From: Chitinophaga pinensis
GTDB lineage: Bacteria > Bacteroidota > Bacteroidia > Chitinophagales > Chitinophagaceae
DNA: 64,000 nucleotides
NCBI GenBank assembly: GCA_945862385.1
Contig: CAMAXV010000002.1
Coordinates: 124,001 to 188,000 of the forward strand
Direction of reading: 5' to 3'
Part shown: positions 10,348-11,524 of the stretch, piece after piece
How the letters are laid out: each line of letters starts with the position of its first letter
Numbering within the stretch: position 1 is the stretch's first letter
Notes under the pieces: model-generated
Told to the model about the DNA's origin: nothing
What the model saw: the letters and a program-made list of their open reading frames with translations, nothing else
The model's database searches: none
Translations under genes and position numbers: made by a program

Positions 10348-11340
10348 TTATCCAATCATCCCCTTCCCCATCAGGTATTCCGCTATCTGAACAGCATTCG
10401 TTGCAGCGCCCTTACGTAGGTTGTCGCTCACAATCCACATATTCAAAGTTCGGGGCTGCGTTTCGTCGCGGCGTAACCTGCCAACAAAAACTTCATCACG
10501 TTCATGTGCATCCATCGGCATGGGATATTGCTGTGATGCAGGATCGTCAACAAGTACCACACCTGGTGCCGTTGAAAGCAAATTCCGAACCTCATCCAAC
10601 TCAAACTCTTCTTCAAATTCTATATTGACACTTTCACTGTGACCTCCCATAACCGGTATACGTACAGTTGTAGCAGTTACACGTATACTATCATCTCCCA
10701 TGATCTTCTTGGTTTCCAAAACCATCTTCATCTCTTCCTTGGTATAGCCATTCTCCAGAAATACATCAATCTGTGGAATTACATTGAGATCAATGGGATA
10801 TTTGTACGCCATCTCTCCTGCAATACCCTGTCTTTCATTCATGAGCTGATTGACGGCTTTAACACCCGTTCCTGTTACGCTCTGGTAAGTGCTCACTACT
10901 ATTCTCCTGCATTTGTAGCGGTTGTGTAACGGAGCAAGTGCAACCACCATCTGGATTGTTGAACAATTGGGATTGGCAATAATCTTATCGTCAACCGTCA
11001 ATTCACCTGCGTTAATTTCAGGCACCACAAGCTTCTTAGTGGGGTCCATCCTCCATGCAGAAGAATTATCAATAACGGTAATACCTGCTGCCGCAAATGC
11101 GGGAGCCCATTGAGTGGATGTACTGCCACCTGCAGAAAAGAGTGCAACTGCTGGTTTCATATCTATCGCAGTCTGCATGGAAACAACCTTATACTGTTTA
11201 CCTAGGAATGCCACTTCTTTTCCTACAGATTTCTCAGAGGCTACCGGAATCAATTCAGTGACAGGGAAATTTCTCTCTGCCAGTACCTGTAACATTTTGG
11301 TGCCTACCAAACCGGTTGCACCTACAACTGCGACTTTCAT
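10348..11340 (-). CDS. asd: Aspartate-semialdehyde dehydrogenase
   Basis: Reduces aspartyl phosphate to aspartate semialdehyde, the branch point for lysine/diaminopimelate, threonine and methionine synthesis. It has the N-terminal NADP-binding motif VVGATGLVGTKM, the FSAGGSTS loop and the catalytic cysteine (about Cys126) in NPNCSTIQM. Substrate-binding residues lie in RIPVMGGHSESVNIEFEEEF. At 330 residues it is of usual length. Upstream are a short lysine-rich open frame and an intrinsic terminator (separate entries), suggesting control by attenuation. It is convergent with ligA. Confidence 0.97.
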   Translation of the reverse strand: MKVAVVGATGLVGTKMLQVLAERNFPVTELIPVASEKSVGKEVAFLGKQYKVVSMQTAIDMKPAVALFSAGGSTSTQWAPAFAAAGITVIDNSSAWRMDPTKKLVVPEINAGELTVDDKIIANPNCSTIQMVVALAPLHNRYKCRRIVVSTYQSVTGTGVKAVNQLMNERQGIAGEMAYKYPIDLNVIPQIDVFLENGYTKEEMKMVLETKKIMGDDSIRVTATTVRIPVMGGHSESVNIEFEEEFELDEVRNLLSTAPGVVLVDDPASQQYPMPMDAHERDEVFVGRLRRDETQPRTLNMWIVSDNLRKGAATNAVQIAEYLMGKGMIG

Positions 11341-11370: not shown

Positions 11371-11399
11371 AAAAAAAAGCCTCCCAAATCTGGAAGGCT
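11371..11399 (-). terminator. Intrinsic terminator inside the asd leader (attenuator)
   Basis: On the minus strand an 8-bp stem (AGCCTTCC with GGGAGGCT, one G-U pair) closes a 6-nt loop and is followed directly by eight T residues. It lies only 30 bp before the asd start codon and downstream of the leader peptide stop, so it would cut off transcription before asd unless prevented from folding. The 5' arm CCTTCC (11392-11397) is complementary to GGAAGG (11433-11438) in the leader-peptide end, which gives a competing antiterminator helix. Confidence 0.7.
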
Positions 11400-11428
11400 G
11401 TTACATATTTGAATCATACAAATGAGAA

Positions 11429-11485
11429 CTAACCTTCCCGGTGGGACTGTTTCTTATTCTTTTTTGTATGCTTATTCTTCATCAT
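11429..11485 (-). CDS. Putative lysine-rich leader peptide of asd
   Basis: A short frame of 18 residues, MMKNKHTKKNKKQSHREG, with six lysines in ten positions (3-12), then a TAG stop. It is followed 30 nt later by an intrinsic terminator and then asd. Six nucleotides near its 3' end (GGAAGG, 11433-11438) can pair with the 5' arm of that terminator. A ribosome stalled at the lysine codons would leave this segment free to pair and let transcription continue; a ribosome reaching the stop would cover it. This is the layout of a classical amino-acid attenuator, and lysine is an end product of the asd pathway. No experimental or homology support was available. Confidence 0.5.
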   Translation of the reverse strand: MMKNKHTKKNKKQSHREG

Positions 11486-11492
11486 TGCTGCG

Positions 11493-11524
11493 CAAAACTA
11501 ATCATCATGTTTTTTTCTGCCAAA
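11493..11524 (-). promoter_or_regulatory. Promoter of the asd leader transcript
   Basis: An exact -7 box TAGTTTTG (minus strand, 11493-11500) lies 20 bp from a -33 TTTG (11521-11524). The expected start of transcription falls within a few bases of the leader peptide ATG (11485), so the leader would be translated from an almost leaderless mRNA. Confidence 0.6.

Follow-up and report, generated by a model that had tools for sequence, protein, structure and literature searches.

The locus studied here lies on the minus strand of a 64,000-nt stretch of Chitinophaga pinensis DNA, referred to as the window, and comprises a promoter-like sequence, a short lysine-rich reading frame, an intrinsic terminator and the presumed regulated gene, asd (10348-11340), whose product was identified as aspartate-semialdehyde dehydrogenase by its match to TIGR01296 (431.6 bits, cut-off 324.2). 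A first-pass annotation of the same DNA had described an 18-codon leader frame with six lysine codons, and this frame, MMKNKHTKKNKKQSHREG, is indeed present on the minus strand (11429-11485), with an ATG at 11485, a TAG stop codon at 11431-11429, its Lys residues within codons 3-12 and a Lys-rich core that is kept in relatives. The terminator (11371-11399), detected by a terminator scan and paired in 76 aligned leaders, consists of a stem-loop at 11399-11378 and a T run at 11378-11371. The eight T residues were correctly annotated, but the stem has nine pairs rather than eight, five of them G-C, and a 4-nt loop. As had been stated, asd follows 30 nt past the terminator, with its ATG at 11340. 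Between the two sits a further hairpin, TCCC-GCAA-GGGA (11365-11354, minus strand); a hairpin of this kind (CCC-N4-GGG or similar) is found in the first 60 nt past the terminator at 22/35 loci of the genus versus only 3/41 others.

The motifs GGAAGG (11438-11433) and CCTTCC (11397-11392) were both found at the positions given previously. Their complementarity also holds, although it had been drawn too short: segment 2, GGAAGGTT (11431-11438), which runs into the leader stop codon, can form eight pairs, including one G-U, with segment 3, AGCCTTCC (11392-11399). These two segments are the 5' and 3' arms of a putative antiterminator, and segment 3 is at the same time the 5' arm of the terminator. 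An eight-pair complement to the terminator arm arose in 0.32% of 5000 dinucleotide shuffles of window stretches. When folded without the terminator, the window leader is predicted to adopt a single long hairpin in which GGAAGG is hidden. In this structure, segment 1, TCCC (11443-11446), pairs with GGGA (11439-11436) and thus covers part of segment 2, as also seen in the alignment of the 76 leaders (A2), whereas the 5' arm of the protector helix P1, CATACAAA (11463-11470), which comprises the codons His-Thr-Lys, pairs with the 3' arm TTTGTATG (11415-11422), as supported by folding and covariation. The 85-nt leader minus terminator has a fold z of -3.75, with 0/200 shuffles equally good.

Promoters of Bacteroidota follow the consensus TTTG / TAnnTTTG. 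The exact promoter claimed just upstream of the leader corresponds to a promoter-like TTTG-N20-TAGTTTTG pattern at 11524-11493, with TTTG at 11524-11521 and TAGTTTTG at 11500-11493; it is absent from the list of a sigma-70 promoter scan, which is uninformative for Bacteroidota. A TTTG / TAnnTTTN pair, spaced by 19-21 nt, is found upstream in 67/76 aligned loci (32/35 in the genus and 35/41 elsewhere). In 59/76 loci (32/35 and 27/41, respectively), the start codon of the leader comes 5-12 nt past the -7 box, a spacing so short that the transcript is probably nearly leaderless. Among 2000 dinucleotide shuffles each, 0.5% contained the promoter pattern and 2.2% a frame with six Lys in ten codons. 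One by one, these shuffle figures are modest, and the decision rests on conservation in relatives.

Conservation and covariation of the leader

Among the 41 genomes of the genus, 37 contain asd, and 35 of these carry a Lys-rich leader, GGAAGG, CCTTCC and a terminator before it. Model R2 likewise matches 35/41 genomes (E <= 0.001), the exceptions being G003, G009, G015 and G027, which have no asd match, and G010 and G012 (loci L004 and L009), which have kept asd and miss the entire attenuator. In the latter two, the asd start codon directly follows the promoter (TAGTTTTGCGCCCTTATG and TAGTTTTGCGGCCTTATG, respectively), taking the place of the leader start codon in the window. Their asd begins 7 nt past the -7 box, so that its mRNA is probably nearly leaderless. 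Over the 300 residues compared, the two asd proteins share 93% identity, so the absence of the attenuator may reflect one event; both genomes carry dapA. G034, which has the full asd leader at G034:C53, also carries a truncated one at the end of another contig (G034:C122:7050-7149), probably an assembly or strain duplicate.

In the Chitinophagaceae, a family of soil and water bacteria, model R1, built from 35 leaders, matches 211/294 genomes and 82/101 genera (E <= 0.05), leaving 83/294 genomes with no match at this threshold. Hence the leader frame and stems, whose conservation the first-pass annotation had named as one point on which its reading would stand or fall, are kept in 35/37 asd-bearing genomes of the genus and in 211/294 of the family. 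R2 matches 12/99 genomes of an order sample, seven of them from the same family, and 7/247 genomes of a phylum sample, five of them from the same family; neither asd nor dapA was seen behind the seven matches outside the family. Among 55 asd upstream regions from these samples, 38 of which had an asd start that could be located by pattern, a leader and terminator before asd were present in 0/34 located loci from other families; within the family, they were found in G044 and G074 and in neither G054 nor G071. Judged by these sequence comparisons, the element fades outside the family. Two Lys-rich frames with a terminator, at L292 and L293, look by eye like the tail of a preceding gene and were rejected.

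The lysine codons were analyzed at 76 loci, taking the frame richest in Lys as the leader in each case. The leaders contain 3-6 Lys, and 73/76 fit a core K-[HNQY]-x-K, a selection that fixes both of its K; the three others (L032, L034 and L058) still carry three or four Lys. Two later positions of the core, which are not selected by this pattern, are Lys in 64/73 and 66/73 leaders, and the two codons in between are variable. These later Lys codons drift mostly synonymously between AAA and AAG, as judged from the alignment: the first is AAG in 51 and AAA in 13 leaders, the second AAA in 51 and AAG in 15, base 3 carrying 1.07 and 1.12 bits of entropy, respectively, versus 0.18-0.59 for bases 1-2. 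Over all leaders, Lys accounts for 27% of the residues, Thr for 9%, His for 8.9% and Met, including start codons, for 7%. A frameshift at the heptamer A AAA AAG, present in the window leader, was considered and dismissed, as some leaders lack this heptamer (e.g. L005 and L007).

The protector and terminator helices covary. In the alignment of 35 leaders (A1), the share of paired cells is 89.5% versus 85.6% in shuffles, and two-sided changes occur in 41 cells versus 15.7, with 0/500 shuffles as high in either case; two weaker measures, the number of pairs with a two-sided change and the number of pair types, were reached by 23/500 and 71/500 shuffles, respectively. In A2, 90.9% of the protector and terminator cells are paired versus 83.7% in shuffles and 164 cells show two-sided changes versus 63.1, and 0/500 shuffles reach the observed level in any of the five measures; the A2 figures lean towards the model because A2 was fitted to it. 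Sliding the partners by 1-3 columns lowers pairing in A2 to 45.5-54.5%. Pairing is weak in helix 2, which forms the inner protector (67.7%), and nearly complete in the terminator (helix 5, 99.8%). Within columns 36-43 of A2, several P1 pairs have changed both partners. A quick tree built from 66 asd proteins calls for at least 12 changes among the paired states U-A, C-G and U-G at the P1 pair 38:110 and for 14 at the outer terminator pair; some of the changes counted for these pairs are one-sided. The antiterminator helix GGAAGGTT:AGCCTTCC is paired in 97.2% of the cells but contains a single two-sided cell, and 101/500 and 123/500 shuffles scored as high for cells paired and two-sided changes, respectively. 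Covariation cannot test this helix because its core is almost invariant, which may be due to its bases having partners in several helices. The comparison with relatives proposed in the first-pass annotation thus bears out the leader, its Lys codons, the stop position and the covariation of protector and terminator, but meets a near-invariant antiterminator.

Genes downstream of the leader

Of the 76 loci in A2, 66 lie before asd and ten before dapA. The five dapA proteins tested in full all score above the TIGR00674 cut-off, and the gene behind L053, one of the ten dapA loci, was identified as dapA by a protein test. Eight genomes of the family in which both matches were read (G069, G124, G213, G251, G263, G295, G304 and G328) have one before asd and another before dapA. 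A pattern scan of named genomes, conducted blind to the downstream gene, returned at least 119 loci, in records that include Lacibacter cauensis and Sediminibacterium magnilacihabitans. Among the 119 matches listed, all of which were read, 111 precede asd and two dapA, four run out of sequence before a gene is reached and two, which are chance matches, fall in coding DNA of Crossiella (Actinobacteria). Asd or dapA therefore lies behind 76/76 loci of A2 and 113 of the 119 pattern-scan loci listed. Asd also feeds the synthesis of Thr and Met, whereas dapA belongs to the lysine/diaminopimelate branch. The lysine specificity proposed for the window leader is thus independently supported by the same leader type before dapA in other genera.

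The genus of the window itself shows a different arrangement at dapA. The gene is present in 35 genomes, and 30 loci were fetched, with the start located in 29; at 0/29 loci did the 250 nt upstream contain the leader pattern or a terminator-like hairpin, and R2 matches nothing at the dapA loci of the genus. There, dapA mostly follows a gene that we take, by eye, to resemble accA. Within the genome of the window, R1 yields nine matches at E <= 10, led by the asd leader (6.8e-20) and followed by a trpE leader (0.023) and weaker ones. The gene that follows was read at seven of the nine, asd and six others.

Several leaders before other genes resemble that of asd. In the same genome, L041 (G000:C3:50807-50935, minus strand) contains a leader, MKGNYTINGWHPYSKSGQ, with one Trp codon before trpE, a CGGGGC near the stop codon and a GCCCCG terminator arm; it has no Rfam match, and the downstream protein matches TIGR00564 (trpE) best, at 392.5 bits and below the cut-off of 517.7. 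From its sequence, L041 could be a Trp attenuator built along the same lines. In another family of the order, the leader MKINNYNHSNNNTSFSPCCCTCCCCCVPIREG at L136 (G604:C2:4139-4325, plus strand) has runs of Cys codons, ends in GGGAAGG and is followed by a CCTTCCC terminator and a sulfite/nitrite reductase-like gene, whose N-terminal piece scores below all cut-offs. At L138 (G630:C221:4407-4532, plus strand), also from another family of the order, the leader MINSINIVISVVVIIN has GGAAGG just behind it, a CCTTCC terminator and an ilvD-like frame downstream (N-terminal piece below cut-offs), with a second stretch rich in GTC/GTT/ATT codons ahead of ilvD; it could possibly be an Ile/Val attenuator of the same design. 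It is tempting to speculate, although we are inclined to doubt it, that the Chitinophagales use one attenuator scaffold, comprising a leader frame that starts almost at the RNA 5' end and has the antiterminator arm as its last part, together with a GGAAGG/CCTTCC-type switch. The codons would be exchanged, with Lys at asd and dapA, Trp at trpE, Cys at a sulfite/nitrite reductase-like gene and Ile/Val at ilvD, and initiation, unlike that in enteric attenuators, would be nearly leaderless.

Predicted ribosome positions and proposed mechanism

To examine ribosome geometry, transcripts extending to the end of CCTTCC were folded with a ribosome placed on the Lys codons or the stop codon, counting those Lys codons that lie more than 12 nt before GGAAGG. 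The last counted Lys codon is found 13-20 nt, mostly 14 or 17 nt, before GGAAGG, the lower bound being set by the counting rule, and the stop codon begins at -5 to +14 relative to GGAAGG in the 76 leaders. At the best stall position, the probability of the antiterminator exceeds 0.7 in 76/76 leaders; averaged over the counted Lys codons, it exceeds 0.5 in 76/76 for footprints of 10-16 nt. With the ribosome on the last counted Lys codon, it is above 0.5 in 76/76 leaders for footprints of up to 14 nt, in 74 for 15 nt and in 66 for 16 nt. A ribosome on the stop codon, by contrast, gives values above 0.5 in 0/76 leaders (below 0.05 in 73 and 0.07-0.25 in the others), a modelling result that is largely geometric. 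The earlier proposal that stalling at the Lys codons leaves GGAAGG free agrees with these predictions. In 14/76 leaders, not including that of the window, a further Lys codon lies 12 nt or less from GGAAGG or inside it, and stalling there, with antiterminator values of 0-0.28, would block the antiterminator. With no ribosome, the median is 0.67 and the window leader scores 0.02; because the value falls below 0.5 in only 31/76 leaders, termination without translation is predicted for the window leader but not everywhere.

The anatomy of the locus, its conservation, the covariation of protector and terminator, the regulon and the geometry were all established by computation, and the defining features of an attenuator, namely leader frame, terminator, antiterminator, protector, geometry and pathway gene, were present where examined. 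The element very probably acts by ribosome-mediated attenuation of transcription, with the availability of charged lysyl-tRNA as its signal for lysine. From this evidence, we infer tRNA sensing, ribosome stalling, a change in asd transcription and a response to lysine as follows. RNA polymerase would start just upstream, and a ribosome would translate the leader at once. With ample lysine, the ribosome would reach the stop codon and cover GGAAGG, leaving CCTTCC free to form the terminator hairpin, such that transcription would end before asd. With scarce lysine, a ribosome stalled on the Lys codons would cover segment 1 (TCCC) and break the protector hairpin, while its front edge would stop just short of GGAAGG, so that GGAAGG and CCTTCC could form the antiterminator and asd would be transcribed. 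If there were no translation, the protector hairpin of the window leader would hide GGAAGG and favour termination. Two elements of this model, the covarying protector hairpin and the predicted masking of GGAAGG by a ribosome at the stop codon, are additions to the first-pass reading.

Alternative explanations and known systems

Conservation of the leader peptide could also point to nascent-peptide arrest, in which the sequence KHTKxxKKHS would stall the ribosome in response to lysine or another small molecule rather than through slow decoding of Lys codons. The core His (60/73 leaders) and Thr (58/73) are conserved as well, and the peptide is common to asd and dapA leaders. However, the conserved His-Thr codons map to the 5' arm of P1, a helix that shows two-sided changes, so that their conservation is explicable at the RNA level; the C-terminal EG is likewise encoded by the GGAAGG segment, and other cores occur before asd (KNTK in L013, KYTK in L073, KQIK in L036, KHKG in L034 and KHTA in L032). 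We thus regard peptide arrest as unlikely. The structured and covarying leader would also suit control by RNA only, with a protector hairpin that binds a ligand or protein and a leader frame that is incidental, an explanation rendered very unlikely by the mostly synonymous drift of the later core Lys codons, the confinement of the stop codon to -5 to +14 of GGAAGG in every leader and the lack of any Rfam family at the gathering threshold in the window locus (L040).

Attenuation in response to another amino acid, be it Thr or Met as members of the aspartate family or His, might be considered in view of the contribution of asd to Thr and Met synthesis and the Thr and His codons in most cores. 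It appears highly improbable given the excess of Lys over Thr, His and Met among the leader residues and the position of dapA in the lysine/diaminopimelate branch. As for a plain terminator accompanied by a chance Lys-rich frame in A-rich DNA, such a frame does arise in some shuffles of the window stretch, at the 2.2% given above, but matches in 82/101 sampled genera of the family, located before asd and dapA where the next gene was read, leave this explanation with almost no credibility. Sensing of lysine by ribosome-mediated attenuation therefore remains our preferred reading.

No earlier description of a lysine leader-peptide attenuator was found in the openly available main texts searched. 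Clues for leader-peptide attenuation before amino-acid operons have been reported for Flavobacterium psychrophilum, in a passage that names no amino acid (PMC9723704); like the asd leader, these leaders belong to amino-acid operons of Bacteroidota, but lysine and asd are absent from the main text of that article. Leader-like small frames are mentioned for B. thetaiotaomicron (PMC7366714). For the lysine operons of Actinobacteria, another article reports no RNA structures upstream and names lysine riboswitches elsewhere (PMC1262725), and the main text of PMC2965389 contains neither 'lysine' nor any word starting with 'bacteroid'. A leader before lysQ, a permease of altered specificity in Lactococcus lactis, is mentioned in a passage of PMC4833913 that cites Lopatovskaya et al. 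(2010). As far as searched, three aspects are new: the specificity for lysine, the regulon of asd and dapA, and the broad conservation across the Chitinophagaceae.

In other phyla, genes of the lysine pathway are controlled by the lysine riboswitch (RF00168), which binds lysine directly and needs no peptide. Both elements thus sit on lysine-pathway genes, but they differ in the requirement for a leader peptide. At the gathering score, RF00168 matched 0/40 genomes of the family, including that of the window, and nothing in L040, whereas 4/14 control genomes (E. coli, B. subtilis, T. maritima and L. lactis) gave a match. Lysine genes, the standard example of riboswitch control, are thus predicted to be under a translation-based sensor here, at asd and, in several genera, at dapA. 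The Bacteroid-trp motif (RF01692) has been linked to trp leaders. It is listed as a probable cis-regulatory RNA of Bacteroidetes in PMC2864571, and neither L040 nor the trpE locus L041 contains a match at the gathering threshold. The same source assigns the asd RNA motif (RF01732) to the Lactobacillales (PMC2864571); though also named for asd, this motif comes from another phylum and is not among the Rfam matches of the region. Overall, a search of L040 against 4227 Rfam families, including T-box and amino-acid leaders, gave 0 matches at the gathering score, and the best weak match of the region was Phe_leader, with 23.7 bits against a gathering score of 55.

The attenuators of Proteobacteria (trp, his, leu, thr, ilv and phe) combine a leader rich in codons for the product, mutually exclusive protector, antiterminator and terminator helices and a T run. 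The asd leader resembles them in its product-codon-rich frame, its mutually exclusive helices and the T run before the gene; it differs in its predicted specificity for lysine, in occurring in Bacteroidota, in its sequence and in a probably almost leaderless mRNA. As a conserved and computable element of Bacteroidota, it can be used to annotate lysine regulons in the Chitinophagaceae. On the computational evidence, the type of mechanism is that of classical ribosome-mediated attenuation, with lysine and the Chitinophagaceae as a specificity and a taxon for which we found no description. The list of amino-acid attenuators given in PMC3766115 comprises His, Leu, Thr and Trp, together with Ile/Val and Phe outside Rfam, and the asd leader would extend classical attenuation to a specificity missing from that list.
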